DNA from: a virus
DNA: 20,382 nucleotides
IMG/VR virus record: IMGVR_UViG_3300000557_000038
Span: 1-20,382 of that record
Strand: one strand, 5' to 3'
The number at the start of each line of letters is the position of its first letter. Position 1 is the first letter of the stretch. The position numbers and the translations under genes are program-made. This document shows, piece by piece, positions 1 to 17,043 of this stretch. A model generated the notes under the pieces. The model was given only the letters and a program-made list of their open reading frames with translations, had not been told where the DNA came from and searched no databases.

Positions 1-723
1 AGAGGCAGTAAAAACATAATAATTTTCTTCAGGTTCTTCTTCAGGTTCTTCTTCGGGCTCACTAGATTCTATACCTTCCAAATAATATATATATGTCATA
101 TCTGCGGTCAAATCTTTGGGAGTATAATCAAAAGATTGACTTGATACAATATTCATATTAGAGGAATTTATTTTATATAAAGTATTTCCATCACTAGAAT
201 AAACATAATTATTTAGATATACTATTTTTCTATTATTTGGTGAACTTGCAAAATTTTCTATAACATTACTCATTTCTAAGTTTTGTAAATTTATTTTTAT
301 AACGCAATCCCCTCATTCCTCATTTGTTACATAATAACCAGTATAGTTTAGATATCCGTTTACAAAAACAAATCCATTATTAATGTCAAAGGTCGCATCA
401 TAAAAAAACGCATTATAACTGGCATCTCATGAAAGTTCGGGGTCAGGATTTGCTATGGCTTTTACATCTATTATAGGCAATCCTGATGACATACTAATTT
501 TATATATAACACCCCTATAACCAATGGCTATAATATTATTTTGATATTCTGCCGCCTTTACTATACCTTGGGGGTCTATTCAAAAATCTAAAGATAAATT
601 TCTTTCATCAACTATTTGTAACGTTTTAGGCTCTACTTTATAAACAGATGATATTATAAAGTTAGATTCAAAACTTGATGTTTCTTCACTTCCAGATGTA
701 GTTATAAGTTTTTTATATGTCAT
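1..723 (-). CDS. Putative tail adhesin with EEEP linker (partial, 3' end outside window)
   Basis: The first 241 codons of a gene that runs off the left edge. It starts MTYKKLITTSGSEETSS after an AAAGGAAATTAA ribosome-binding site. Residues about 20-220 are beta-rich, with short repeated elements such as YKVEP, VIYKISMSSG, CVIKINLQNLE and LYKINSSNMN, each pairing a reporter strand with a following loop, as in beta-propeller blades. Three UGA codons are read as Trp (DFW, LSW, EEW). Near the edge the protein enters an acidic EEEPEEEPEE linker like that of the gene at 2125-3543, so another domain is expected beyond it. The leader and first codons nearly copy those of the upstream gene, which makes the two paralogous cassettes. 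No family can be named with confidence. A receptor-binding or accessory tail protein role is inferred from position at the end of a baseplate operon. Confidence 0.8.
25..60 (-). repeat. EEEP-coding 12-bp tandem repeat
   Basis: On the minus strand, 12-nt units (GAA GAA GAA CCT/CCC) encode a Glu-rich, Pro-punctuated linker. It resembles the 15-nt EEEEP array at 2749-2844 but lacks one Glu codon per unit. Both sit between a beta-rich N-terminal part and a downstream domain. Copy-number change would alter linker length without shifting frame. Confidence 0.8.
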
Positions 724-740
724 TTAATTTCCTTTATATA
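699..740 (-). repeat. Duplicated leader/start region (copy B)
   Basis: A 42-bp segment holding the ribosome-binding site, start codon and first codons (MTYKK.IT) of the gene at 1-723. It matches 2076-2117 at 40 of 42 positions; the second copy has the same role for the gene at 763-2100. It supports gene duplication, or recombination at a shared 5' end. Confidence 0.85.
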
Positions 741-771
741 TTTCCATTAATATCTAATTTAACTATTTTTC
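736..771 (-). repeat. 36-bp repeat spanning the end of the 763-2100 gene (copy A)
   Basis: Matches 984-1019 at 35 of 36 positions. In the internal copy the sequence encodes KIVKLDTNGN in frame. Here it is read in another frame, so its TAG becomes the stop codon of the 763-2100 gene and the rest forms the intergenic leader. This looks like the scar of a recombination or duplication between propeller repeats. Confidence 0.8.
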
Positions 772-2100
772 AGGGATATTTATTAATCCATATGGTGTAT
801 TTAAAGGAATCATCCCTCAACATCTATATTCTGACCATGTTTCATTATCTTCGTGTGTATCTATCAATACATTTAAATCTAAATCATATATTATTATCTG
901 GTCATTATCTGCCGTCCAAATTTTATTTCCTTTTTTTCTCATATCAGTTATGTAATGTGAGCTGTCCAGATATGCAGTTTTTAATATATTTCCATTAGTA
1001 TCTAATTTAACTATTTTTCTACTATCTCTAAGAATATACATATTATTATTATCATCTACTAAAAATTTGTCATATATATGGTCACGGAAACCTCCAATAT
1101 ATTCACCATCAAATAAATCTACTTTTTCATATATTAAATTACCATTAGTATCAAATTTTCAAAAATTTGTCCTATAAGCCTGTACGCCATATTCTATGAC
1201 TTCATAGTCATCGCCAAAAACACAAATTTCATCATTATTATTTATGCCTACAATCATAAATGACCATCTTTTACTCGTTGACGTTTCAGGATATTCCCAA
1301 CTTTCATACCCTCATTGAAAATTACCATTTTTATCAAATTTATATAAATTTACATCTTGATAATAACCAATACCATATATATTATCATTACTATCAAGAG
1401 CAATAGATCCTAAATTTTGATTTCAATAATAAGCATCACAATCAGGAATTCTACCTATTGTATATGTTTCTCATAAAAAATTTCCATTTGCATCAAATTT
1501 TATTAAACAGATATAACTATCTGTTTCTAAAGTATATCCACAATATTCTATAGTTTTTGTAGAATCATATCTAGGAGTGTTGCCACTTCATTTTGTAATA
1601 ATAAAATTATTTTCACTATCTATCTTAAAATTAAGAATATTGTTCTGATCATAAGCCACATGTTCAGTACTAGTTCATAAATAATTTAAATTTTTATCAA
1701 ATTTACTTATTTGACAGTCATATCATTCATCAAGAAATACTATATTATCATTACTATCTATCCCTGCCATTGGCGCGTTTCCACTAGCCCCTTTATTAGA
1801 CAATATATACATTGGATGACCGTCCATTTGTCAAATCCTATCTTCATAAATATCAGTTCCAAGTGAATTTATAGGAACAAGTCCATGCTCCTTGTCAAGG
1901 GATGATAGTGATTTTATTGAAGCAGGAGCTGTTCCTCCTTGTGATGGATAATCAATTATGCCTATAGCTTCTATATAAATTGGCTCTTCAGGAATACTTA
2001 ACTCTTTACTAGTAAAGGTATATATATATCCATCATTTGCATGAACCACACATCCTAACTGCTCATGCTTGTATTTAGTTATAAATTTTTTATATGTCAT
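763..2100 (-). CDS. Beta-propeller repeat tail adhesin
   Basis: Encodes 445 aa beginning MTYKKFITKYKHEQLG after AAAGGAAAATAA, reading UGA as Trp and stopping at TAG. After about 90 residues of unclear beta structure it carries repeated blades with the consensus K-F-D-x-N-G-N-x-x-W: SKFDKNLNYLW, IKFDANGNFLW, YKFDKNGNFQW, WKFDTNGNLIY and VKLDTNGNILK. Each is followed by an I-x-x-D-S-N-D-N-I-type strand (GIDSNDNIVF, ALDSNDNIYG, LVDDNNNMYI). This is the pattern of SBBP/NHL-like beta-propellers, which are binding scaffolds. No signal peptide or transmembrane segment is seen. Given its position after the fibre and gpI-like genes, a receptor- or glycan-binding virion protein is inferred. The C-terminus lies in a duplicated DNA segment, so it may be a truncated or reshuffled form. 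Confidence 0.85.
984..1019 (-). repeat. 36-bp repeat, in-frame internal copy (copy B)
   Basis: Partner of 736-771, with one mismatch. Here it is translated as part of a propeller blade (KIVKLDTNGN), so this copy is likely the source and the terminal one the derived copy. Confidence 0.8.
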
Positions 2101-2124: not shown

Positions 2125-3543
2125 CTATGGACAAGTGCCTCATTGTGGATGTAAATGGTCATCTCCTTCAAACCCTGACCTTGCAGCAAAAAATGTAGGA
2201 TAATAATCAATCAGTGTAACACACCAACCAGATAAATTTTGACTAAAATTTGTTGCACCATTAAACATATTAGTCATCTCGGTAACATTACTTGTATCCC
2301 AATTTCCTATATCTTGATTGAAAGATTCTGCTTCATAAAACATATAACCCATATTAGTAACATTACTTGTATCCCAACCGCTAATATCCTGATTGAAATT
2401 TGTAGCACCATAAAACATATGACTCATATAAGTAACATTACTTGTATCTCAATTTCCTATATCTTGATTGAAAGATTCATTATATTGAAATGTTCCCAGC
2501 ATTCAAATAACGTTGCTTGTATCTAAATGACTTATATCCTGATTAAAATATTGTCAATTGAATGCATCACTCATATCAGTAACAAGAGAAGTACATATTT
2601 TAGTAAAATCCTCTTCATTAGGGTTCATATTACTAAGCATATCATCATTTATAGCTGTATATGTTACACCATTTACTTCACCTGTATCGCCGGGATTGAC
2701 CTTTTCAGTATCACAATAAATAATGCCGCCTTCTTCTCAGAATAATAGTTCTTCTTCAGGTTCTTCTTCTTCAGGTTCTTCTTCTTCAGGTTCTTCTTCT
2801 TCAGGTTCTTCTTCTTCAGGTTCTTCTTCTTCAGGTTCTTCTTCACCATCATGAAGTGTAATCAATTCTCCTTCAGTCGTTGATATATAAAGGGTTAATG
2901 TTTCGGCTCCGCCGCCAACAACAATTTGTACATCATCTCTTTCTATAGCCTCAACAACATATGTTCCTCCAGATAATTGTATAGTATAATCAGCTGATGG
3001 TAATGTATCTGTTCCTTCTATGTCTTCAAACGTGATATGTCTTGTTTGTCCTGCTGAAATAAATAAATTAGTCATAACTTCTTCTATTAATACTTGTTCT
3101 GTATCTAAATCACTTATAGTTAATAATATATCTAATTCTATATCTTGGTCTGCTATATTAGTTACAGCTCCGTATACTGTAATTAATTGACCATATTCGG
3201 TCACACTTCCCATTTCTGGACTAAATATTTGTATTCTATATCCTGTTTCTACACCGTCTGTTATGACTCTTATAGATTCAGCCCAAGCACTAGAACCATA
3301 ATTTTCACTATTATGTCTTACCCTAAATACGTATTCAATATTATAATTTAAAGCCTCTTCTCAAGGTATTTGAATTTGTTCTAAATTTTCTGTATCATTT
3401 ATTGAACTTCATACCAATGTTTTATTTAAGTCATTCAATCTAATTTCTCAATCACTACTTACATGATTATCAGTACCCTCATTTAAATCCATAGGATTTG
3501 TTTTTAGTAAAGGGTATATATTTAGTATTGCAGCTTTAGCCAT
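2125..3543 (-). CDS. Tail adhesin: FnIII-like domain, EEEEP linker, DUF285/BspA repeats
   Basis: Encodes 472 aa, starting MAKAAILNIYPLLKTNP after AAGGAG and ending TAG. Residues about 10-110 look like a fibronectin-III domain (WEIRLND, PWEEALNYNIEYVFRVRH, SSAWAESIRV). Residues about 111-225 form a second beta-sandwich (VTNIADQDIELDILL, FISAGQTRHITF). Residues 233-265 are an acidic EEEEP linker. The rest has five 25-residue DUF285 (BspA-type) repeats of the form FNQDIxxWDTSNVTxMxxMF, closing with SGWCV and WGTCP, an ending typical of secreted DUF285 proteins. Tryptophan is encoded by eight TGA and four TGG codons. DUF285 proteins are known as surface adhesins in mycoplasmas and other bacteria. 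Here the gene follows a gpI-like gene, where P2-type phages keep the tail fibre gene, so host recognition is the likely job (inference). Confidence 0.9.
2197..2560 (-). repeat. 75-nt tandem repeat array (DUF285 units)
   Basis: Five units of 75 nt. The diagnostic Trp codons fall exactly 75 nt apart: TGA at 2449-2451, TGG at 2374-2376, TGG at 2299-2301 and TGG at 2224-2226. The outermost unit has TTA (Leu) at 2524-2526. The equivalence of TGA and TGG within near-identical units shows directly that UGA is read as Trp. Confidence 0.9.
2749..2844 (-). repeat. EEEEP-coding 15-bp tandem repeat
   Basis: Five perfect head-to-tail copies of a 15-nt unit (2761-2835; four GAA codons plus CCT) with partial units on each side, giving six prolines in an otherwise all-Glu tract. 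It joins the beta-sandwich part of the adhesin to its DUF285 repeats. Perfect copies suggest recent expansion and easy copy-number change, always in frame. Confidence 0.95.
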
Positions 3544-3554
3544 TTTTTTCTCCT

Positions 3555-4502
3555 TTAGTCTTCAACATGTGAAATAAAGATAATATCTGTTTCGGGTTTT
3601 GATTTTCTTGGATATGAATTAAAATGATTAAATTTTAATTCCTTTTCATATGTTTTTTCTCATCTTTCATATACATTTAATCTATTATTAGAATTTTTTG
3701 TTATTATATTTCATATGTTATATAAACCAGAATAAGTTCCTTTCTGTTTCAATAACCATATTAATCTAGTAATAAATCATCTTTTGGCATCGTCGTCAAT
3801 AAATTCTATCTTTTTGAAATCCACTCCAAAATATGAAATTAAATATTCCAAACATTCATCTAGACAATTAACAGGATCTATTAAATTTCATATATTTTTT
3901 TGAGCATGATATACCTCATTATATATCATATCAAAATTTATATATACAAAATCTTTTAATTTTTTTGTTTGTTGGTGTGGAGGTATACAATCTACTACAT
4001 AATTTCATATGTTATAATGGTTTATATATCACTCATCCCCATCTTTATGGTATATTTGACCTATATATAATAAATCTTTATTATAATTAATTAATTTGTT
4101 AAAATCAAAAGATTGATTATATTTATCTGATATATGGTTATATCCAACCTCTTGCATCCATAAATGAAAATGACTATCATTTTTAAAGTATATTTTTGTT
4201 CCGTTATGTAATCAATCACTATCTGGTATGGTAATTAAAAATCTATTATCATCTTTTAGTAATTTTTTTTTGAAGGTGAAAGAAACAGGTATTAAATTTT
4301 TGTTTTCGTCTTCTATATAAAAATTTAGTAAATCTGTAAGTTGAACAAATATAGCATTAACTCTGCTGCCTACTATATATGAATTTTCAAAATTAATATT
4401 TGATTTATGTATATATTTATCTTTATATTGTTCCGTAGGGTTTATAAAAACAAAATGTATATAATTTTTAAATATAAAATGAGGTATTTCACTAAATTGC
4501 AT
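3555..4502 (-). CDS. P2 gpI-like baseplate/tail protein
   Basis: Encodes 315 aa, starting MQFSEIPHFIFKNYIHF after AGAGGAATAATT, two bases after the preceding stop. The C-terminal third has the signature of the phage tail protein I family: NCLDECLEYLISYFGVDF, then AKRWFITRLIWLLKQKGTY followed by SGLYNIWNIITK. In P2-type phages gpI sits at the baseplate rim and connects to the tail fibre. The N-terminal about 130 residues resemble no gpI I know and may be a separate beta-rich attachment domain. Many Trp are UGA. Its place just before the adhesin at 2125-3543 fits the P2 order J-I-H. The family call rests on the C-terminal motif only. Confidence 0.75.
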
Positions 4503-4504
4503 AA

Positions 4505-5116
4505 TTATTCCTCTATAATAGTAACAAAATCCTCAATTAATTTTGGAAATTGGTCTCTATTTAATAATATTCCTCTTAATCTGTTTTCCATTTCCGAAGA
4601 AAAGGATTCTTCTATGTACATGGGGTATTTATTTTCAATATTAGGTTCAAATATATATTCCGGTTCTGTATTAGTAGGAGTGCATAAAAATTGATTTCTC
4701 ATTACAAAATTTTTTATACCCTTTGTGTTATTAAATTCATTATCTGATACATGAATTATATAATTATGTATATTTCTAAAATCAATTATATCATTAAATT
4801 CTCTGTTTTCAGGACTAAAGTATTTTTTTAATTTCCCCATAATATGATTATTAACTAATTGTTTAGAAAATCCAGTTTTATATCTAACTCCAAATTCAAA
4901 TCCAAAATGAACAAACTTTGGGGCTATAAAGACTTCTTTGGTATTTATATATTTTCTGGGCTCTAAATACAATAAAATATGATTTTTAAAATCTTCATCA
5001 TACTTCATTGGTATATCTAGCTCAATTCCGTTTCAATTATACGGAATCCCATATACTAAATGGTCATCAAGTATGGGATGTACCGTTATATAAACATTAT
5101 TTGTTATTTGTCCCAT
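4505..5116 (-). CDS. Putative detached C-terminal part of a gp6/J-type baseplate wedge protein
   Basis: Encodes 203 aa, starting MGQITNNVYITVHPILDDHL after AGAGGATATT. The central part, about residues 60-115 (FIAPKFVHFGFEFGVRYKTG, then KLKKYFSPENREFNDIIDF), resembles the C-terminal region of T4 gp6/P2 J proteins: a beta-strand pair, then a helix that leads to L-x-x-Y-F-x-P and a following I-D-F-x-x-I strand. The large gp6-like protein at 9074-13639 has the N-terminal and middle gp6 motifs but not this region. A split wedge protein whose halves are made from two genes is therefore inferred. Alternatively it is an independent small baseplate protein with a similar fold. It is followed after two bases by the gpI-like gene. 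Confidence 0.6.
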
Positions 5117-5127
5117 AATATCCTCTA

Positions 5128-6444
5128 TTATCCTATTATTTTTACAACCGTATTTATAGCTATAAATGTTGTTAGTTTTATTGTATCTTTATCTAAAGAC
5201 TCTATTTCTATATCATTTGTTACTTTTCTAACGTCCAAATCCCAGCATATTACTGAAGGGAAATCATTATTAATATCATGATGTACATTATATGAATACT
5301 CATTTCCTGATAATCATTCGGTAGCAGATATTATTTGTGTATATGAAGACGGTATATTACCACTCAATTCATGGGTATGAGAATCTTCATATACAGTATT
5401 ATGTGAATCTCTACTAATAGATGTGGGAGTTCCAAGTATAATAGCCCTTGATTCTGTGATATCACCACCACCAAGCATACCATCTCCTGCTGATAATTCT
5501 ACAGTACTATGATCAATGTGTTCATTTTGATCATAATTTATTTCACTATGATTTATATCACTAGCACTTAATGATATAGTCATGCTTTCTGTGATATTGC
5601 CACCGCCTGATAATAAACCATCTGTATATACAACCACTTCACTATGGTCAATAATTCTATCATGAGATGTATAGTCTAATATATCTCCTAAATTTTTTGA
5701 TTCTCACTTTTCTGATGCTGAAAAAACTAATATATTATGTTCAAGAGGCTCTACTGCATCTACATCATTAACATCATTTATATTCGCATCTAATGATATA
5801 GTTATATAAGTAGCATTTCTTTCTGTATTAATACCTGTATCACCAGTTATAACAACATCCAATTCTGCTGTAACATCATCGCCGGTATCTTCAAAACTAT
5901 CTTTAATTTTTCAATATAAATAATTATCCTTTTCTTCTAATTCACTATGAATCTTTTCAGCACTTCATAGGTCTATATTTTGTGTACCCGAATCGTTTAT
6001 TTCTCTATGGATAGTAATATCACTTACGTGGTCATAAGCAAAAGAAGACCATTCTGTATCAAAATCTATAGCTGTACTTTTTATGAGTACATCATTACTA
6101 CCTCCGCCTTCTGGAACAAATTGTCCTATTTCAAATGGTGGAAAAATATTTATTTCATCTATTTCACCATAAGACAACTCTCCTTTTTCCCATTTAATTT
6201 TAAATTTTTGAGTAAAGGGATATCCGTTTACTTGATCCCTATAATCAGCAACAAAAAATTGAAAAAAACCAGAAGCGTTTGTTATTAATTGAGGCGATTC
6301 ACTAATAACATCAGATCCATGTTCACTAGTATATACTACTACATCATTTTCTGTACCAGCTTCATATATAAAAATCAATGCGTCCTCGATAGGTTCTCCT
6401 GACGCATCAACCAAAAATTGTCAATAATGATATCTATTAGACAT
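5128..6444 (-). CDS. Tail fibre protein
   Basis: Encodes 438 aa, starting MSNRYHYWQFLVDASGEPI after AAGGAG and ending in tandem stops TAA TAG. Residues about 8-100 look like a carboxypeptidase-regulatory or Ig-like N-terminal module (VDASGEPIEDALIFIYEAGT, then NASGFFQFFVADYRDQ) that often anchors fibres. Residues about 270-330 hold two copies of the fibre-shaft motif: GLLSGGGNITESMTISLSAS and GMLGGGDITESRAIILGTP. This G-G-G-[DN]-I-T-x-S form is common in phage tail fibres and is linked to trimeric beta shafts. The C-terminal about 90 residues (from QIISATEWLSGNEYSYNVHH) resemble the short beta-sandwich found at the tips of some fibres. Receptor contact is inferred from family and context. Confidence 0.8.
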
Positions 6445-6469: not shown

Positions 6470-9055
6470 TTATATAAAAGTCTTTGATATTTTTAAAAAT
6501 AAATTCATTTCAAATTGTTTAGGCTTATAGATACCATAAGTATCAAATTCTACCAAAATGTTACCATCATTATTTATTATATAGAAATCTTTTATATTTA
6601 CATCATCTATAATATTTTCTTCTATTTTATAAGTTATATATATATAATCATCATCATCGTCTATATTTATAGTTGGAAATTCATTATCGCCTATTACTAG
6701 TAACGAATTAGCCATTTCATCATATAAATTATCCAGATAACCGGGCTCATAATATATTTTAGTTCTTCCTAGACTATGTTTAAAAAATTGCGGTTCATAT
6801 GTACTAATTCATCTATTGCTTGTATCTATTCTCGGAGAAAACAGAATTTTATAAATAGGTATTTTATTAACCGGAGAAAACATTTGTCATAATTCATATA
6901 ATGAATCTATTATATCCTTAGAAACAATTGCGTTTTTTTCTAATGGTTCTGTTGATAAGTCCATTTCAATTACATAAAACAAACTCATTCTCCACTCTTC
7001 TTCATCTAATCATAAATTATTATAAAATTTTGTATATCATTTTTCTCCTGCTCCAGATTCTAAATCCTCATATTCATATAATTTTGTATACATGATATCC
7101 ATATAATCAAATGTTGTTATTATAAGGTCTTGTATCACTTCATATGGGACGCCAACATCGACATATACATTAAGGTCTTGTATTACTTCATATGGAAGTG
7201 ATGTATCTATTATTCCATATTCTGAAAGTATAGAAATATCATGAATATCTCTATCTTTATTTTCATATCAAACTATTTCACCTTCATTTTGCCCATCTAA
7301 TATGTATTCTGCTATTACTTGTGAATCCACGGAAACTAAATTATTGAAATCACCTTTTATCAATAATGAAACATTTGAATTCATGGTATTATATATTTCA
7401 TCTATTATCGGCGTATTACCATCAAATATAACTTTATAAATTTTATTTGTCGTTTCAGAACCTATATAAAGAATATTTCCTATATTAACAAAACTTGATG
7501 GGATAATATCATCTTCCCCATCCTTAAAATCATAAGACTCATTAACGCTCATATTTCAAGTAGAATGTCTTAATATTTTACCGGGAGATATAGAATAAAA
7601 AGTAAAATCAGAATGTCTTAAATAGATAAATCCTTGAGTAATAGCAGCATCTGTATATGTTCCAGAAAGAGACAAATCACTAGTATGATTTCTAGATACA
7701 TATCCTTCACCTATAACATAAAAATCGCCATATTGGTCAGTAAGAACATCATAAATTTCTCCATTAAGTGTTGCTGAATTTTGAGAATTATCTATAGTTA
7801 CAATTTCTAAGGTATCTGGATCTACTATAGAAAGAACTCTATATTCATCATCGCCAACTGTATGTGTTGCCTGTGCTATTAGATGGTTTGTATAGTTACT
7901 ATTCTCATCTGATTCCCATTTCATATAAACAATCTTATAATCATTGTTTGTATAACTATGGACTATGGAAAAATCTTCTGGATCAATTTTAAAACTAGTA
8001 TGTCCGTCATTAGTTTCGGCAGAAAAATATATATATCTATTTCCGCCAATTACTAAATTGTTGCCTCTTAAATGGTCCCCTGTTACAACGCCATCTATAG
8101 TCAATTGTTTTTTTACAGGACTTTCTTCCTCAACTCATTTTTTTTCAAGTATTGGCTGTGTTGAATCTTTATACAATTTATATATAAATTCTGTAATTTC
8201 ATAATTAGCCGGCTCTATTCATGTAACTTGGTTATCGTGTCCATAATATGAATGTATAATTTCAGGTCCATTAACATCAATGATATCTACTTGGTCGTTA
8301 TAATCACCGCCTCATAAATATCCATTTTTATCTATTAACAATGATCTGTATGATCAATTGTTTGACCAAACTTCAGAAAAATCTGATATATTAAGTTTTT
8401 TTGTCCAACTATATCCAGATATATATAAATAGTTATTAGAATCTATGGACATGCCGGGAGCACAATCTCCGACATCTAAGCTTAATTCGGACTCCATTGT
8501 AGATGAATTTACTTTATATATATATTCTGAACCGCCGTAATCTGGGCCTGTATATAAATAGCCATCATGATATAATAACATTCTTACATGACTATTTCCA
8601 ACATCAAAATAATCTACTAACGACATATCAGAAGGGTCGATTTTGGATAAAATGCCGTCAAACCCGCCCGAATATATATATGTCCCATCATTAGTTATGG
8701 CTCTTACGTTATTTGTATGTCCTGTATATTCATCTACATATGATAAATCACTGATATTTAATTTTTTTACATCATTATCTGTTCCTATAAAAACATAATC
8801 ACCTAATATTGTTACACACCTTACAGAATTAAATGTATAATTGGCAACCTCATTAAATGTTATTATATCAATTTTTCTAATTGAGGAATCATATGACCCT
8901 GTATATACATAACCATCTTTATATGCTGCTGCTATAACATTATCTGTATGTCCTGTAAATTTTTGAAATTCTTCATAAGTATTTACGTCTATTAGATGAA
9001 CGCTATTATCTAAACTAGTCGTAATCATCATATATTTTTCTGATTTATTAATCAT
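6470..9055 (-). CDS. WD40-like/beta-propeller baseplate-associated protein
   Basis: Encodes 861 aa, starting MINKSEKYMMITTSLDNSVH after AAGGATGTATTAA and ending TAA. Residues 1 to about 270 form WD40-like blades: FTGHTDNVIAAAYKDGYVYT with SYDSSIRKIDI, YTGHTNNVRAITNDGTYIYS with GFDGILSKIDP, and later YYGHDNQVTWI. The GH dipeptides and the S/G-x-D-x-x-[IL]-x-x-[IW] strands are classical, though several Trp ends are Ile. Residues about 318-595 look like a second propeller (DGHTSFKIDPEDFSIVHS, NILYIGSETTNKIYKVIF). Residues 596-861 differ: a Trp/Tyr-rich helical part (LWLDEEEWRMSLFYVIEMDL) and FSPVNKIPIYKILFSP, of the kind that tethers phage adhesins to baseplates. WD40 propellers bind proteins or glycans. 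A receptor-binding or structural wedge role is inferred from the neighbours. Confidence 0.85.
7123..7195 (-). repeat. 25-bp direct repeat coding for PYEVIQDL
   Basis: Copies at 7123-7147 and 7171-7195, offset 48 nt (16 codons), with one mismatch. Both encode PYEVIQDL in frame. The intervening codons differ, so this is an old or partial 16-codon tandem duplication at the junction between the second propeller and the C-terminal part. Confidence 0.8.
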
Positions 9056-9073
9056 TTAATACATCCTTATAAA

Positions 9074-12000
9074 TTAATATTGTCCACTTGATTTACATCC
9101 ATCAGATCCTCTAATATGTCTAACGCTTGGTCAATTAGTATATGATGCATTATCAAGTTCATCTGTATCCAAAAATTCATCTCTCAAATAAGATGAACTT
9201 TTAGTTGGATTGTCTATCCAATGATTTAATCACCATTCTCATCCACCAAAATCAGGCAATCTTCCCAGTCCAAATGGCAATGGGGCCATAAATCAATCAA
9301 ATATTTGAGCCATTCAATTTCTATGTTGGGATGTAACAGGTATGCCCATATGTTCTAATACGGCATTATAAAATGATGTAGATTCTATCATTTGATCAAT
9401 TCCAAATATACCATATTTCCTATAACTGCCATCAAAATAATCAACTGAGCCCGGAGTAACAAATGCCAATTCACAAGTAGGCTCTGGTTCTATAGGTTCA
9501 GTTGGTGTGTATCTTCCTTCTGCATCTATTATTCTATCTGCTTCAGTATATACAACAATACCTGAAGGTGTATCTCATCCACTAATATCAGTAAATTCAA
9601 TTGTATAGTTTTGTCCTATAGTAACGTCATCTCATACATATCCATGTGCCCTAGTAGTATGATAAGGGTCCGGCTGCCCGGGTGTATATGTAGGATCATT
9701 TAATTTAGCACGAGCATTATTTCTAACTTCGGATGGAGAACTAGGATTTATAACTACTCTGATACCAGCATCGGGCTCTGGCGGTGGTGGAGGCGGTACA
9801 TATGGCTCACTATAAGTACCTGTTACTAATACTTCCTGACCAGCTACAACATTAACAGATTGTGCCCCGGGCGTATCTCATCCACTAACATCGCTAAATT
9901 CAACTGTTACAGTTCCTTCATCTACTCCTGTAATAGCTTCCATATGCCCCATTCAAGCAGAATCAATAGTTACGATTCTCCATTTTCCTGTTCCTTGGAC
10001 ATCAGATGGTCTTAATTCCCCACGAATAGACCCTGTGGTTGGCTCTTCATATTCATATTCTCCTTTTGCTTGTACAGTTTCGTTTTCAATAACATCTATA
10101 TAATTATTGCTTGGAGTTTCTCATCCATCTATATCACTATAAACTACTGTATATGAGCCAGGATCTAAATCTTCATATCTATATCCATCAGAGCGTCATA
10201 CTTCATCAGAATTTAATTTACCTTTCGCCCCTGCTGATCTAGCACCACTTGGCTCAATAACAATTCTTAATTGGCCTGTTGGAGGACCTTCTCCTGCAGT
10301 TACAGATAAATCAGGGGTTAATACGTAAACTTCTGGCTCAACTGATTCATATTCGCCAGTTATCTGCACTTCTTGTCCTGCTTGAACCTGTACAAATTTA
10401 TTTTCAGGTTTAAATTGACCATCAACAACTTTAAATTCTACATAATAAGATCCTTCACTTATATAATAAGGTTCATCTGAATGATATTTTCAAGAATGTT
10501 TGGATGTTATCTTTCCTGCCCCTCTATCCCTTATACCTGTTGGTTCAATGTTTATTTTTAACCAACCTTTTGCTATTGAATCATCTGAATATATGCCTTC
10601 TACTACTGTAGTTTCATCAGTGTTTATTCTTACTTGTTTATTTGAAGGTTCTACATATCCATCAATTTCTTCATATTGAATAAATGTAGTACCAGACGGC
10701 AAATCAATTGTATCGGTGCTTTGTCTCCATTGTCCATTTATTATTCTTCATCTTGCATAATGAGATACTGCTGTTGGACTTATAAGTACCTGTAATGACC
10801 CATATTCTTCTGTTTCGTCTTTATAAGCGTTCCCTGTTACTTCTTCAGCCCCTCTGCCTATATATATTTCTTCTTCTTCAGGGGTTATTCATCCATCTAT
10901 ATCTTTATATTCAATTGTATAAGTACCAGAAGGAAGTTCATCATATACATAATTATCATCACGCCATTCTGTTTCTCACGGAGCAATAATTCTTGCTTGT
11001 CCTCCTTCGTTTCTAGCCCCTGAAGGTCTAATATGTATAGTGATAGATCCTAAAACATCTAGTATATCTTCATATTCTCCGATAGCAAGAACCTCTTGTC
11101 CTGCTTCAACTTCGACCTCAACTAATGTCTGTTCTATAACTCATTCCGTTTCATCACCGATTTTTTTAAATTCGATCATATGAGTACCGGGGCTAACATC
11201 GTAAACAGTATTATGTTTACCTCAATCCTCATAACCAACAGGTCTTCCTGCCCCTCTTTCTCTAATATCGGGATGGTCTGGATTAACATATATTATTACA
11301 CTTCCTAATTCTGCTGTATAATTGCCCTGTACAGGCAAAGTTTCTCCTGCAACAATATCTACTTGTAATGCGGAAGGTCTTGTTCAATTATCTATTTCTT
11401 TAAATTCAATCGTATAGGTTTTAGGTACAAGATTTGTATATATATATCCATCATCCCTTCAATCAAGTTGACCTACAATTCTTGCTTGAGCGCCCGCATT
11501 TCTTGCTAAACTAGGCTCTAATGATATTAATAAATTACCTACAGTTTCTTGATCTTCTGTGTAAGAAGCTGTAACAACTCTTTCTACATCAGTTACAGAT
11601 ATATCCATCATTAACGAAGGCCTTTTTCAACCTTCTATTTTTTTAAACTCCATAGAATAATTACCTGTATCTAAATTATGTCAAACATAATTATGAGGCC
11701 TAAATTCACTATCGATTCCTAATAATCTAGCAACTCCTGTAGGGTCTTCTTCAAATATTTCATCAGGACCATTTTCTATATAGACTCTTATGGAACCTTT
11801 TGTTTCATCTATATATTCACCTATGGCTAATATTTGTCCTGTTTCGATTTCTATACCAGTAACCAACGAACTTACTAATTCTCATCCTTCTACAGATTTA
11901 AATTCTACATTATAAGTTCCTGGCGGTAAATTTTCATAAACATATCCGTGAGGCTTAAATTCCCCTTCATCATCTACAAGTTTTCCTCCGCCATTATTTC

Positions 12001-13639
12001 TTACATATTCATCGTCTGGATCTAATCAAATCATTATGGACCCAAAAGCAATTTCTTGATATGTTCCTATAATTAATGACTGTTGATTAGGATAAATTTG
12101 CACAAATATGTTACCCGGCTTTTTTCATCCATTTATAGTCATAAATTCAATTTCATATTCACCTTGAGCTAAATCTTCATAAATATATCCATGCGTTCTT
12201 CAACTAGTATCGCCTACCAATCTTGCCCTTCCTCCTGTTCTTGCTCCGGCAGGATTGATGTTTATTCTTAAAGAACCTGGCAATATTTCTTCATAATTTC
12301 CTATAGCTATAGCTTGTTCATCCTTAAATATAGATATAATTAAATTATCGGGCGTATATCATCCTTCTACATCTTGAAATTCTATATCATATTTTCCTGA
12401 CAACATATTTTCATAAACATGTCCATCGTTTTTTCATTCTTCTCTATCTATAAGTTTTGCTTTACCTTTTTCTTTTATTTCTTCAGGCTGTAAATCTATA
12501 ACAATAGAACCATAAAGTTCTAAGGGGTCTGATCATACATTCCCCTTGATAATATCTGGATGAGATTTTAAATGATTTCTATAATCCTCTACATTAACAT
12601 TTCTAATTTGAGATAAAATATTATATTCTGATATATTTTTAATTTGTTCTATAGTTTCTGGATCTGAAGAACCATAACTTGGATTATTGTTTATTATTTC
12701 TATATAATCCTCATCTATAGGTGTATTGTTTATATTTATTAATCCATAATCTTCATAAATAAAATCATTTACTATAGGATTTATCATAGGCACTTCTTTT
12801 ATATCCAAAGAAGTGTCTTTATTAAAGGTATTTGTAGTTACGTTGCCATTTCTTCCTAATGTATTATTAAATATAATTGAAATTCTAGCGTCTTTATTAG
12901 GGATATTATGTGATTTTGAAAATAGTATATTACATCTATTGAATTTATCGTATTCAAGTATATATACCTCGTTTAATTTACTTAATGGGGTTGCATATTC
13001 TTCAAATATTTCAACTCTTTTTCAAAGTTCACCATTAACATAAACTCATGGGTCTACACCAAAATCAATTGTTCCTATAGGTATCAAAATTCTATTATTA
13101 ATGATATTTTCTCCTGAAAATATTTTAATTAAAGGAGTCCCTTGTCTTACAGTTAGATTAAAACTATATTCATCACCTTCTAAATTACTAGGGATAACAA
13201 TAAATTGTTCTTTTACTGTTTGATAAGTAATTTCAGTAGGGCCTTCATACAATCCACTATTTATTTTATATCAAGCCGGAATAAATAATTCATCACCTTT
13301 GGATGGTAAATTTTCATCTTCATCATCTACTTTTATTACAACAGTTAAAATTAATGATGCTGATATATAACCTTTTGGATTATATCCTCTTATTGAAGCA
13401 ATACTGTGCATAGTTTCATATACTTCTGCACTTTGTGGGTATATATTTTTTACTATCTTATTTGAAAAGTAAGTTGACATATCAGTTAGATATGATACTA
13501 GCTCGATAAGCATAGTAATGTTTGAACCTTCATAATTATAATCCCTAAAGGTATCTGATTCTTTCATTAATTCAGATAATTTATTTTTGGCTGAATTAAA
13601 ATCAGTTTCTAAGTAAGATGGTATCAAATAATTTTTCAT
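9074..13639 (-). CDS. gp6/J-like baseplate wedge protein with twelve C-terminal PEGA-like repeats
   Basis: Encodes 1521 aa, starting MKNYLIPSYLETDFNSAKNK after AAAGGAATATTAATATT and ending TAA, with many UGA=Trp codons. Residues 1 to about 375 match the T4 gp6 / P2 J family: FRDYNYEGSNITMLIELVSY followed by a G-Y-N-P-K-G helix, then a QFIVIPSNLEGDEYSFNLTV-type domain, ISIIFNNTLGRNGNV, and SDPETIEQIKN leading to NVEDYRNHLKSHPDIIKGNV. In gp6 the family continues with Y-G-x-V-x-I-x-I-x-P. Here YGSIVIDLQP instead opens an array of twelve beta-sandwich repeats (residues 376 to about 1377). The C-terminus (about 1390-1521) is Trp-rich (GGWEWWLNHWIDNP) and unfamiliar. The usual gp6 C-terminal region is absent here but seems present at 4505-5116. 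gp6 forms the inter-wedge ring of the baseplate. The repeats probably project outward. Confidence 0.85.
9509..12514 (-). repeat. Twelve tandem PEGA-like protein repeats
   Basis: Repeats start at residues 377, 455, 533, 615, 701, 779, 864, 947, 1025, 1122, 1203 and 1292 of the wedge protein, each about 78-97 residues. The consensus is G-S-[IL]-x-[VI]-x-I-x-P-x-G-A-R, then A-x-[AW]-[RK], W-R-x-x-G-Y-x-Y-E-x-L-x-x-G-x-Y-x-[IV]-E-F-x-x-[IV]-x-G-W-x-x-P, then V-x-A-G-x-x-x-x-x-G-x-Y. This form is known from PEGA-like beta-sandwich repeats of bacterial surface and secreted proteins. Copies are strongly diverged in DNA, so the array is old. Proline or Glu/Pro spacers follow repeats 9 and 11. Confidence 0.85.
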
Positions 13640-13654
13640 AATATTAATATTCCT

Positions 13655-14035
13655 TTACGCTGCTTTTATAATTTCATCTATTATATATGGGTCAGGGCTC
13701 ATTATGTCCTTAATTTTAAATTTTAGAACAATATGGTACTGTCCTTTATCGGCCTGTGGAGTTATTAATAAATCTTCTATTATAACTCTATTGTCTCATG
13801 TTCTTATGGCCTGTACTAAGGCATTTCCTATATTTCTTGCTGTTGTTTTGTCTATAGGTTCAAATAAATAATCATATAAATTAAAGGCAAAATTAGGTAA
13901 ACGTCTTCTATTTCCTCTATTTGTTAAGAATATATTTTTTATAGACATTTTTACAGCGTCTTCATCTGTATAATCAAAAACATCACCATCATGTTTTTTC
14001 TCTAAATTTATATCAATATCTTTTCATCAAGTCAT
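13655..14035 (-). CDS. gp25-like baseplate wedge protein
   Basis: Encodes 126 aa, close to the usual gp25 length, after AAGGATATTATAAA. The family signature is clear: NIFLTNRGNRRRLPNFAFNL followed by YDYLFEPIDKTTA, matching the gp25/GpW 'GER...P.FG...LFEPID' motif, then TWDNRVIIEDLLI and a final beta pair HIVLKFKIKD. gp25 is a core wedge component of contractile tails that helps initiate sheath polymerisation; it is not enzymatically active despite its lysozyme-family label. Codons 3 and 4 are both TGA (Trp-Trp), so standard-code gene finding would lose the gene at residue 2. Its place between PAAR and gp6 fits P2 and T6SS gene order. Confidence 0.92.
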
Positions 14036-14065: not shown

Positions 14066-14353
14066 TTATCCACCAGCAAAAGAATCTGGCGATCCTGTTA
14101 CAACATAAGAACCACAAGTTATTAAATCTCCTACACGCCCTATAGGTTGTCCATTTACAAAAACCGTACTACTCCCTACGGCTAAATTTCCTGCATGTAC
14201 ACTTAATCCACAAGCATGGGGCGCTCAAGCATCCCCCATTCTATGTATTGGAATTCCATTTACATAAGCATCGGGAGACCCTTCTATACTTGGACGTGGA
14301 TGAAAACAATGATGTCCTGTACATAAAGATCCTAAATGCGCTATAGGTGGCAT
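14066..14353 (-). CDS. PAAR-domain spike tip protein
   Basis: Encodes 95 aa, starting MPPIAHLGSLCTGHHCFHPR after AAAGGAGTTAATT, and ends in GSPDSFAGG and TAA. PAAR features are strong: the N-terminal H-x-G-x-x-C-x-G-H-H-C zinc-ligand cluster, repeated V-N-G-x-P-[IV]-x-R-x-G-D (YVNGIPIHRMGDAW and FVNGQPIGRVGDLI), and the H-A-C-G and T-C-G turns. PAAR proteins cap the spike trimer with a zinc-bound cone and pierce the target envelope. It has no effector extension. One Trp codon is TGA. The partner is the gp5-like needle at 15955-17043. Confidence 0.95.
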
Positions 14354-14355
14354 AA

Positions 14356-14925
14356 TTAACTCCTTTTATCAATTTCTTCCATAAATTTTTCTACATTTTT
14401 TGTTAAATTTATAAATACGGAAATACCAAAAACTCCTATATATGTGGCTACAACAGGAGGCGCTGTTCCAGGCACTACACCTGTAACTGTTACGTCAAGT
14501 TGTCCTAATGTATATTGAGTATCTATATACCCATTTTCTTTAAGTTCCATGTTTGTAAGATAAGGGGATGCTGTCGGTGACGGCAATTTATCCCAATCAT
14601 CTACGGTATATTCATTATATTCTGGATCTAAATAAGAAATAGATTCTATTTTAGGAAAAATATCCTCATTACTTATATAATTTACTTCTAATACAGGACC
14701 ATTTTGTTTAATTTCTATATTTTTTATTTCTTCTAATCGTATACCTTCAAAATTTCAGGTTCATAATGGTCCTTGTAACGTTGTTGCTAAAACTCCAATT
14801 CCTTCATAACTATTTTCGTTAGTATTTATAACAGTATGGGCAACATTAGAATGAGGCAATTCAAGTTGTCCTAAAAATCCATCAAAAATATTTTGTACTG
14901 AAAAGGCTATTCATGGATCTACCAT
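14356..14925 (-). CDS. Baseplate-region protein of unknown function (189 aa)
   Basis: Starts MVDPWIAFSVQNIFDGFLGQ two bases after the preceding stop and ends TAA. The first half is rich in beta strands (GIGVLATTLQGPLWTWNFEG, KNIEIKQNGPVLEVNYI). It has a P-x-P-x-A-S-P linker near residue 115. Residues about 140-170 are hydrophobic and Gly/Pro-rich (VTVTGVVPGTAPPVVATYIG followed by VFGISVFINLT), possibly a membrane-contact or buried beta segment, and the protein ends in a short charged helix. I recognise no family. Its place between the spike and PAAR genes suggests a central spike or hub accessory. The GGA upstream is about 12 nt from this ATG, longer than elsewhere in the operon. Confidence 0.8.
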
Positions 14926-14927
14926 TA

Positions 14928-15239
14928 TTAATTTAATTCCTTTATATCTTCATATTCAATTTCTGGCGTAATAGGATGAAATGGTTTATGGTCGTTTATC
15001 TCAAGTCTTTCGCCTCTTAAATATAATGTTTTGTGAGATTGAATTTTTATATCTTCATCAGATTCCAAAAATACCTTTCCTTTTAATTTTATAACTGTAG
15101 TATATGAAGGATATATTTCTAATTTTCCATTAACATACTCCACAACACTACCATCAGGATAAATTTTAATATTTTTCAATAATTTATTTATAAACCATTC
15201 ACTTATTTTTGATAATGTATCCTTTTTGGCCATTAACAT
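14928..15239 (-). CDS. Small beta-rich baseplate-region protein (103 aa)
   Basis: Starts MLMAKKDTLSKISEWFINKL after GGAGATTAAT. A second ATG at codon 3 is possible but is further from the ribosome-binding site. After an N-terminal amphipathic helix come short alternating strands: IKIYPDGSVVEYVNGKLEIY, VIKLKGKVFLESDEDIKIQS, then LYLRGERLEIN. The rhythm recalls spike beta-helix or OB-fold extensions, so it may pack on the needle (weak inference). No family recognised. Confidence 0.75.
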   Translation of the reverse strand: MLMAKKDTLSKISEWFINKLLKNIKIYPDGSVVEYVNGKLEIYPSYTTVIKLKGKVFLESDEDIKIQSHKTLYLRGERLEINDHKPFHPITPEIEYEDIKELN

Positions 15240-15954: not shown

Positions 15955-17043
15955 CTAATTGATATTTACTATAGATCCATTAACATTTACTATACCAGAT
16001 GCTATTATGTTACAATTTGCCCCTACATTTATGTTACAATTTGATCCTATATTAACATTATAATCTGTTCCAATAGTAACATCTTTATTAACGCCTATAG
16101 TTATAGAAGAATTTGTGCCTATATTTTTTTCTTCATTATTTCCTATGTCCAATAACCTGTCATTCCCTATTTCTTTTTCTTCATCATTCCCTATTTCAGT
16201 ATATTTATCATTTCCAATTTCGGTATATTCATCATTTCCGATTTTTTTTGTTTTATCATTATCTATTGTTGTATTATCGTCATTGCCTGTGTGTTTATTG
16301 AAATCCTTTAAAATTATATCATACCTATGGCCATTATTTTTTATAATTTTATTTCCTTCATTATCTATTTCTATATATGAATTTGATGGATGATATATAT
16401 GTAGTCTTGGGTCATCTGATGTATCTATTTCAATTATCAATCCACTATGGGTAGCATATACTATATTATTTGGATATTTTTCACTTGATTTTAAATAATA
16501 AGAATCGGGCTCACTTCAATTTCCTTGTCCTAATGCTAATTGAATACCCTTATCTAATTTACTTTGTTTATAATCAACTATAGTATCACTTGATTCGTCT
16601 CTTGACAATCTATGCCAATCAGGCTCATTTAATCTATTATCAGTAGGATATTGTTCATTAGGGTCACTAAATCCATGCTCGTCTTCATATCCATGATTTT
16701 TATCGGTAGGCAATCCTGGCGCACTTGCAAAAAATCTTGGATTTAAAATATGCCCATTTTCAAAAAATAAAAAAACATGACTTCCTTGTAATGGAACTGT
16801 CCATCCTCCAAACCCTGATACACTGCCTTCAAAAAGACTTAATGCTGGCTCGGCTCATGGCAATTCATCTGTAGGAATCCCATTTAAATCATCCTTTTCT
16901 TTTATTTCAGTATGAACCCCAAATATTCTTATTTTACATCTTCCCATTTTTTCAGGATCATTATTTTCTTCAACTACCCCTCTATAAATGCCCCATAACT
17001 TATCTTCTGGTGGTTGAAAATCAATTGGATTATTTTTTAACAT
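15955..17043 (-). CDS. gp5/VgrG-like spike protein, lysozyme-less
   Basis: Encodes 362 aa, starting MLKNNPIDFQPPEDKLWGIY after AGGAATAAATT and ending TAG. Residues about 15-115 form the OB-fold of T4 gp5 and VgrG: WGIYRGVVEENNDPEKMGRC, KIRIFGVHTE, and the second half with GGWTVPLQGSHVFLFFENGH. A loop region (about 125-190) is rich in acidic residues and P-T-D. From residue about 250 come octads of the form x-[IV]-G-[NTS]-[DN]-x-x-x that fold as the triple-stranded beta-helix needle. T4 gp5 has a lysozyme domain between OB-fold and needle. None is seen here. It should trimerise on the hub encoded just upstream and carry the PAAR tip. Confidence 0.92.
15985..16296 (-). repeat. 24-nt (octad) repeats of the spike beta-helix
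   Basis: About twelve to thirteen eight-residue units, e.g. EIGNDEYT, EIGNDKYT, EIGNDEEK, DIGNNEEK, TIGVNKDV, TIGTDYNV and NIGSNCNI. The early units are highly charged and nearly identical at DNA level, and the later ones are neutral and Asn-rich. Each octad is one strand turn in T4 gp5-type needles, so unit number sets needle length. Confidence 0.85.

Follow-up and report, generated by a model that had tools for sequence, protein, structure and literature searches.

Few parts of contractile injection machines are as conserved as the gp6/gp7 wedge. In phage T4 there are two gp6 copies per wedge; their N-terminal domains form a within-wedge dimer on gp7/gp8, the C-terminal part (residues 334-660), a dimer when crystallised on its own, joins neighbouring wedges, and the gp6 dimers form the continuous baseplate ring (PMC3004832). 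A second T4 virion protein, Hoc, decorates the capsid with a string of Ig-like domains and binds bacterial surfaces; in phage Muldoon it has ten Ig domains (PMC10385173). Here we analysed one 20,382-base metagenomic virus contig (IMGVR_UViG_3300000557_000038, positions 1 to 20,382), referred to as the window, which covers part of a genome only. On its minus strand the N-terminal half of a T4-type gp6 is fused in frame to twelve tandem beta-sandwich repeats, and the other half of gp6 is encoded elsewhere in the same operon (Table 1).

The array protein is a single 1521-residue open reading frame (ORF; 13639 to 9074, with TGA read as Trp) comprising the gp6 N-terminal half (gp6N, residues 1-376), the twelve repeats (residues 377-1388) and a 133-residue C-terminal domain (residues 1389-1521). 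The gp6N region matched phrog_219 with an E value of 1e-28 over profile positions 8-357 of 598, Pfam Gp6-like_1st (PF21379) with 33.7 bits against a cut-off of 27, and an 11-sequence gp6 model with an E value of 6e-31 over positions 11-362 of 600; by tblastn, matches were found in 374 phage records. The Pfam and PHROG matches assign to gp6N both the helical N-terminal domain and the core of T4-type gp6. The sequence-only reading had described the repeats as fused to a gp6 core, and this core proved to be genuinely of the T4 type but to represent the N-terminal half only.

The only other match to the gp6 model in the window above the inclusion threshold was ORF 4505-5116, starting at model position 369 (domain E value of 0.0012). 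With a profile of 17 gp6 C-terminal halves from related phages, this ORF gave an E value of 7e-48 (156 bits), the next-best ORF of the window giving 0.27, and tblastn matched it to the relative L223 with an E value of 2e-36. Its AlphaFold model was confident (predicted local distance difference test [pLDDT] 85.9, predicted template modelling score [pTM] 0.82), and nearly all significant hits of a Foldseek search with this model were baseplate wedge proteins, among them T4 gp6 (3h2t/5iv5) and those of contractile injection systems and phages. Profile and predicted fold together confirmed ORF 4505-5116 as the other half of gp6 (gp6C), encoding the C-terminal ring/dimer domain that is absent from the array protein. 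The possibility that gp6 is intact and the array a C-terminal extension was rejected, since the array protein matches the model no further than position 362 of 600, the remainder being encoded by another ORF. Relative to T4-type gp6 (PDB 5IV5, 3H2T; phrog_219), the two halves together cover the protein (model positions 11-362, then from 369) and gp6N has the same slot after gp25, but there are two polypeptides rather than one, and the N-terminal half bears twelve additional domains plus a candidate tip.

By alignment, the cut site corresponds to T4 residues ~366-370, which we read as a turn between two strands. Almost nothing of gp6 is lost, because gp6N ends with "...NVWSDPLELY" and gp6C begins with "MGQITNNVYITVHP". 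The gp6C gene starts with an ATG preceded by a ribosome-binding sequence exactly at the onset of homology. Repeat 1 opens with the strand GSIVIDLQP, which resembles the gp6 strand displaced by the array; that it substitutes for this strand is speculation. We judge an intron or intein between the halves unlikely: the array lies there together with two more open genes, each having its own start and stop. In trees, the gp6C branch was 1.27 substitutions per site compared with 0.97 for the longest relative, and the gp6N branch was 0.64; relaxed constraint and adaptation to the split would both account for the long gp6C branch.

When gp6N or gp5 was used singly as the query against viral contigs, there were zero matches; the lineage of related phages was found by a scan with a gp5 alignment and enlarged by scans with the lineage gp6N and gp6C alignments. 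Its members closest to the window, L067, L069 and L152, break off upstream of gp6 or within it. In all 40 distinct lineage sequences with both halves visible, gp6 was one ORF. Seven of these are recoded, and the other 33 have no in-frame TGA and are therefore intact under either code, so that the suggestion that the relatives' gp6 is intact only through TGA read-through was rejected. T4-type gp6 in further loci was also one ORF. The gp6 proteins of L070, L223, L234, L072 and others share ~29-48% identity with the N-terminal half and 26-42% with the C-terminal half and have the same operon neighbours, but each is one ORF (median 588 residues) without the window repeat. The repeat model had 0 matches in loci L067-L235, and no gp6 with the same fusion was found among the 40. 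The earlier proposal that such an array is foreign to ordinary gp6 was thus upheld, with none found in 50,697 phage records either. Both the gp6 split and the permutation were seen in the window only, among the relatives examined, and searches of the open-access literature turned up neither a split gp6 nor such an array on gp6.

Other changes to the wedge proteins do occur in the lineage. Four of the 40 relatives' gp6 proteins carry other insertions or extensions: that of L157 (328-3801; 1158 residues) has six FG-GAP repeats, of the beta-propeller type, inserted in the C-terminal half (Pfam E value of 4e-50), those of L155 and L233 have ~100-150 extra residues near the position of the window's split junction, and that of L068 has a C-terminal extension. 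The gp7-type gene is in two ORFs in L235 (2737-6902), where the linker that is cut in the window is cut too but the order is collinear, and in L153, L154 and L163 (11757-14223), cut within the gpI part. These cases indicate that, in this lineage, gp6 can take up additions and gp7 can be broken. In L170, L171 and L174 the gp7-type wedge proteins are 2338-2499 residues long, with very long insertions.

The gene following gp6 in the relatives encodes the partner wedge protein as one ORF, whose first part is clearly homologous to window ORF 3555-4502 (gp7N) and whose later part, 8-500 residues further on, is clearly homologous to residues ~650-760 of ORF 6470-9055 (gp7C). Profiles of 26 relatives' gp7 matched these two window ORFs only, and the two parts were joined in one ORF in 30 distinct relatives' sequences. 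By these matches, the gp7/gpI-type wedge protein of the window is also split. The name gp7/gpI was given from position and from weak profile links to named families (TIGR02242, E value of 3e-4; wedge gp32 of A-1(L), 0.006; Tail_P2_I, 0.04). The gp7N ORF ends at the linker with a clean stop, and gp7C is fused in frame to a WD40-type propeller. Where the relatives have the order gp25, gp6N-gp6C, gp7N-gp7C, fibre, the window has gp25, gp6N-array-tip, WD40-gp7C, fibre, gp6C, gp7N. The fibre gene, which follows gp7 in the relatives, thus precedes gp6C, and the close adjacency of gp6C and gp7N is kept. With the gp6C-gp7N block behind the fibre gene and no longer separating gp6N from gp7C, gp6 and gp7 are each split at an internal linker. 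The four junctions lie at ~12511 (gp6N with the array), ~7108 (WD40 with gp7C), ~5117 (fibre with gp6C) and ~3550 (gp7N with the DUF285 gene). Both new junctions carry adhesin-type domains, the repeats on gp6N and the WD40 propeller on gp7C. Either a duplication of the region with complementary losses or a single translocation would give this order.

Table 1. Positions in the window of the wedge genes, their parts and the twelve repeats
Feature	Position	Residues	Strand	Evidence
gp25 wedge subunit	13655..14035		-	Pfam GPW_gp25, E 1e-11; phrog_261, E 2e-25; directly upstream of gp6N, as in relatives
gp6 N-terminal half (gp6N), wedge-internal part	12512..13639	1-376	-	phrog_219, Pfam, tblastn
Repeat 1	12278..12511	377-454	-	leave-one-out E 1e-28
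Repeat 2	12044..12277	455-532	-	leave-one-out E 9e-32
Repeat 3	11804..12043	533-612	-	leave-one-out E 2e-23
Repeat 4	11549..11797	615-697	-	leave-one-out E 3e-20
Repeat 5	11306..11539	701-778	-	leave-one-out E 7e-27
Repeat 6	11060..11305	779-860	-	leave-one-out E 2e-17
Repeat 7	10814..11050	864-942	-	leave-one-out E 6e-27
Repeat 8	10577..10801	947-1021	-	leave-one-out E 6e-18
Repeat 9, then 23-residue linker	10346..10567	1025-1098	-	leave-one-out E 1e-21
Repeat 10	10040..10276	1122-1200	-	leave-one-out E 6e-29
Repeat 11, then proline-rich linker YVPPPPPPEPDA	9803..10033	1203-1279	-	leave-one-out E 5e-23
Repeat 12	9500..9766	1292-1380	-	leave-one-out E 2e-17
Trp-rich C-terminal domain, candidate distal tip	9077..9475	1389-1521	-	position only
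WD40-type beta-propeller, N-terminus of ORF 6470-9055	8156..9055	first 300	-	Pfam WD40, E 4e-9; several WD40 propeller models
gp7/gpI-type C-terminal part (gp7C) of ORF 6470-9055	6473..7108	~650-861	-	26-relative profile: 651-759, E 1e-26; 789-860, E 9e-6
Tail fibre-type gene	5128..6444		-	blastp to gene after gp7 in L223, L153, L160, L155 and others
gp6 C-terminal half (gp6C), separate gene	4505..5116		-	own ATG and Shine-Dalgarno-like GAGGA; profile, tblastn, fold
gp7/gpI-type N-terminal part (gp7N), separate gene	3555..4502		-	relatives' profile, E 4e-57; TIGR02242, E 3e-4; adjoins gp6C as in relatives

The operon was continuous when read with translation table 4, in which TGA encodes Trp, and shattered with table 11. 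TGA encodes the "GW" column of the repeat in 10 of the 10 copies having Trp there, and the bacterial relatives of the repeat described below have Trp at this column; the "NVW" motif of gp6 likewise contains TGA in the window and Trp in relatives without in-frame TGA. The reading of TGA as Trp was confirmed because these codons sit on Trp columns of the homologues, and on the same grounds TGA as Gly was rejected.

Each of the twelve repeats was recognised by a profile built from the other eleven with 49-95 bits (E values of 2e-17 to 9e-32), whereas the best score among 500 shuffles per repeat was 13.2 bits. The prediction of twelve tandem beta-sandwich domains was therefore borne out, although the span given for them, 9074-12514, was too wide: the repeats occupy 9500-12511, and the remainder includes the non-repeat domain at 9077-9475. 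This Trp-rich domain had no Pfam match at E values up to 10 and no PHROG match, and its resemblance by eye to DUF4214 was rejected as a profile match was absent. The repeats share 20-42% identity with a reference repeat and the DNA repeats within the array are short and diverged, so the array did not expand recently. The GC content of the array is 0.353 compared with 0.26 for the gp6 half, but a recent import is not indicated, as the third-position GC is equal (0.14 and 0.13). AlphaFold modelling of repeats 1-3, as suggested by the sequence-only reading, with natural relatives in the alignment, gave confidently predicted all-beta domains (pLDDT 95.6) whose mutual placement is uncertain (pTM 0.62).

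The repeats had been called PEGA-like, which holds as a loose description of the fold but not of the family. Pfam PEGA (PF08308) had no match in the window at E values up to 10, nor in scans of the repeats, while control genomes were positive, and PEGA membership was rejected on this basis; a BFVD protein named PEGA matched the repeat model in a structure search with an E value of 3e-3. The nearest solved folds for the three tandem repeats were the TIE protein, SdrD B domains and pilins (E values of 2e-8 to 2e-6), and Foldseek comparison with SdrD B/Cna-B-type stalk domains gave 6e-7 for 10ps and 1e-6 for pilins. In predicted structure, the repeats thus resemble stalk domains of Gram-positive adhesins (PDB 10PS, 6FWV, 7VCR), with 9-16% sequence identity, although those belong to cell-wall proteins. 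PF17210 (SdrD B-like) matched the whole array protein above the cut-off, but over profile positions 50-72 of 112 only, and single repeats fell below the cut-off.

The nearest family was an un-modelled surface-type repeat of bacteria ("GAQWR...VEFK.I.GW.TP", ~77 residues). Two strict DNA patterns for the repeat gave zero matches; when 84,980 genomes of bacteria and archaea were scanned with a DNA pattern, 46 loci were found, 41 of which encode relatives of the repeat by profile. Most domains in these relatives span model positions 1-75, the best having E values of 1e-22, and arrays reach 23 copies; the bacteria concerned are Sedimentisphaerales, Hydrogenedentota, Lentisphaerae, Verrucomicrobia and Desulfobacteria. 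Full-length profile matches and a common tandem arrangement assign the window repeats to this family of large bacterial proteins, although in the window they are carried by a virion baseplate protein. When the array was searched by tblastn against phages (the same 50,697 records) and plasmids there was no match; one or two copies were found in four viral contigs and in two human-gut phage records, the latter via the bacterial consensus. In L061 (8849-10183), L062, L063 (2721-3974) and L064 (13947-15224), two of which are human-gut phage records, a single copy forms the C-terminal domain of a structural, capsid-like protein. Predicted beta-sandwich segments like the array (E values of 1e-7 to 2e-9) were also found in BFVD proteins named "Baseplate J like protein" (phages ctxc31 and ct3r22) and "Baseplate wedge protein" (cttEB8), which differ from it in having ~10% sequence identity and in belonging to other phage groups.

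The anatomy of the locus, that is, homology, gene order and clean starts and stops, is well supported by the sequence comparisons, and from it we infer reassembly of the halves in trans and a role in adhesion. By sequence, this is a T4-superfamily baseplate wedge locus that has been rearranged, with the gp6C-gp7N block now behind the fibre gene and an adhesin-type module on each exposed end facing the gap. We propose that the two halves of gp6, and likewise those of gp7, would be made separately and re-associate noncovalently into a normal (gp6)2-gp7 wedge, in which gp6N would keep the wedge-internal contacts and gp6C would form the wedge-to-wedge dimer. The array would form a stalk emerging midway through the gp6 fold, with the C-terminal domain as its tip. 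The sequence-only reading had suggested 72-144 displayed domains per baseplate, and a baseplate with 12 gp6N, the number in T4 (PMC3004832), would display 144; these ~12 arrays might then provide multivalent binding, ahead of fibre engagement, to the host surface or to glycan or mucus outside the cell. We consider it probable that the wedge is a rearranged two-chain one, with the gp6 N-terminal half holding a long stalk that ends in a tip domain. The fuller proposal, that one block rearrangement left both gp6 and gp7 functioning as two-chain proteins, with the stalk and the WD40 propeller docked on the freed ends and ~144 domains placed on the ring, appears reasonably likely.

Several points weigh against this proposal. 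The arrangement is a single instance on one 20-kb metagenomic contig, and an intact gp6 or gp7 may lie elsewhere in the genome. Reassembly is not guaranteed because the split cuts a beta-hairpin inside the C-terminal fold and not the N/C boundary of the T4 crystal fragment, and the long gp6C branch could mean relaxed constraint. The stalk shape, in turn, is predicted with modest inter-domain confidence, as the pTM given above indicates.

Adhesion is the most likely role of the array, and Hoc is the nearest functional analogue. Both are strings of Ig-like domains on a virion protein, and Hoc is proposed to hold the phage on surfaces (PMC10385173), but Hoc is a capsid decoration attached through its own binding domain and encoded by a separate nonessential gene, whereas the array is part of the wedge. 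General Pfam and PHROG scans, made with no direct Hoc comparison, turned up no member of the Hoc family. It is possible, but on balance unlikely, that the array is instead a passive spacer, a structural skirt or an inherited decoration like the Hoc Ig domains without specific binding, an alternative that bears on function alone and would leave the split-wedge anatomy unchanged. The single copies at the C-termini of structural-type phage proteins described above would fit such a role, as would the finding that Hoc is nonessential under laboratory conditions (PMC10385173). However, the far end of the array carries a distinct Trp-rich domain, other receptor-type modules (WD40, DUF285) are encoded in the same operon, and the Hoc Ig domains themselves bind bacterial surfaces (PMC10385173).

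Alternatively, the array protein might be an adhesin that borrows the gp6 N-terminal half as an anchor, with intact gp6 and gp7 outside the window and the halves accessory or decaying. The window covers 20 kb only and the gp6C branch is long, both as this would predict, but gp6N follows gp25, its canonical position, each of the four halves has an open, conserved reading frame (gp6C with 156 bits, gp7N with an E value of 4e-57), and no second gp6 locus was present in the fetched flanks (up to 10 kb) of the relatives examined; we therefore regard this explanation as improbable. Least credible, and in our judgement very improbable, is an assembly chimera in which segments from one phage or from two related phages were misjoined and the split and permutation exist in no virion: the evidence is a single contig and related phages are diverse and mosaic (the gp5, the counterpart of ORF 14928-15239 and the gp6N of L183, at 2398-5149, are 61%, 72% and 30% identical to those of the window), but both fusions are in frame, gp6C begins with its ATG and ribosome-binding sequence at the onset of homology and gp7N stops cleanly at the linker, the four half-proteins each occur once with none duplicated, third-position GC is uniform (0.13-0.20) along the operon, and four clean ends at domain boundaries are not expected from a random misjoin.

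If the two-chain proteins do assemble, a natural four-chain wedge would reveal where the machine tolerates breaks and additions, with a bearing on wedge assembly and on the engineering of phage tails and injection systems. It would also illustrate how phages can acquire surface-binding arrays in places other than the usual fibre genes, and it would add an un-modelled bacterial repeat to the domains that phages display.

From right to left the order of the operon up to the array protein is tape measure (end), a gp48/54-like gene, gp53, hub, gp5, three small genes, a PAAR-type gene, gp25 and the array protein. The PAAR-type gene (14066-14353, 95 residues) lies between 14356-14925 and gp25 and is below the 100-residue limit of the ORF list. 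In the Pfam scan, gp5 (15955-17043) had oligonucleotide/oligosaccharide-binding and trimerisation domains with no lysozyme domain reported, like some Vibrio phage relatives. Directly after gp7N, gene 2125-3543 encodes a DUF285-repeat protein of the Mycoplasma type (Pfam E value of 3e-58), the repeats following an acidic EEPEEEEPEEE stretch; from its sequence it is likely to be another surface-binding gene. Beyond it, the neighbouring genes 1-723 and 763-2100 encode apparently propeller-like proteins with a common leader, MTYKKxIT..., the first having a weak DUF6923 match, and these are possibly interchangeable tail tips.

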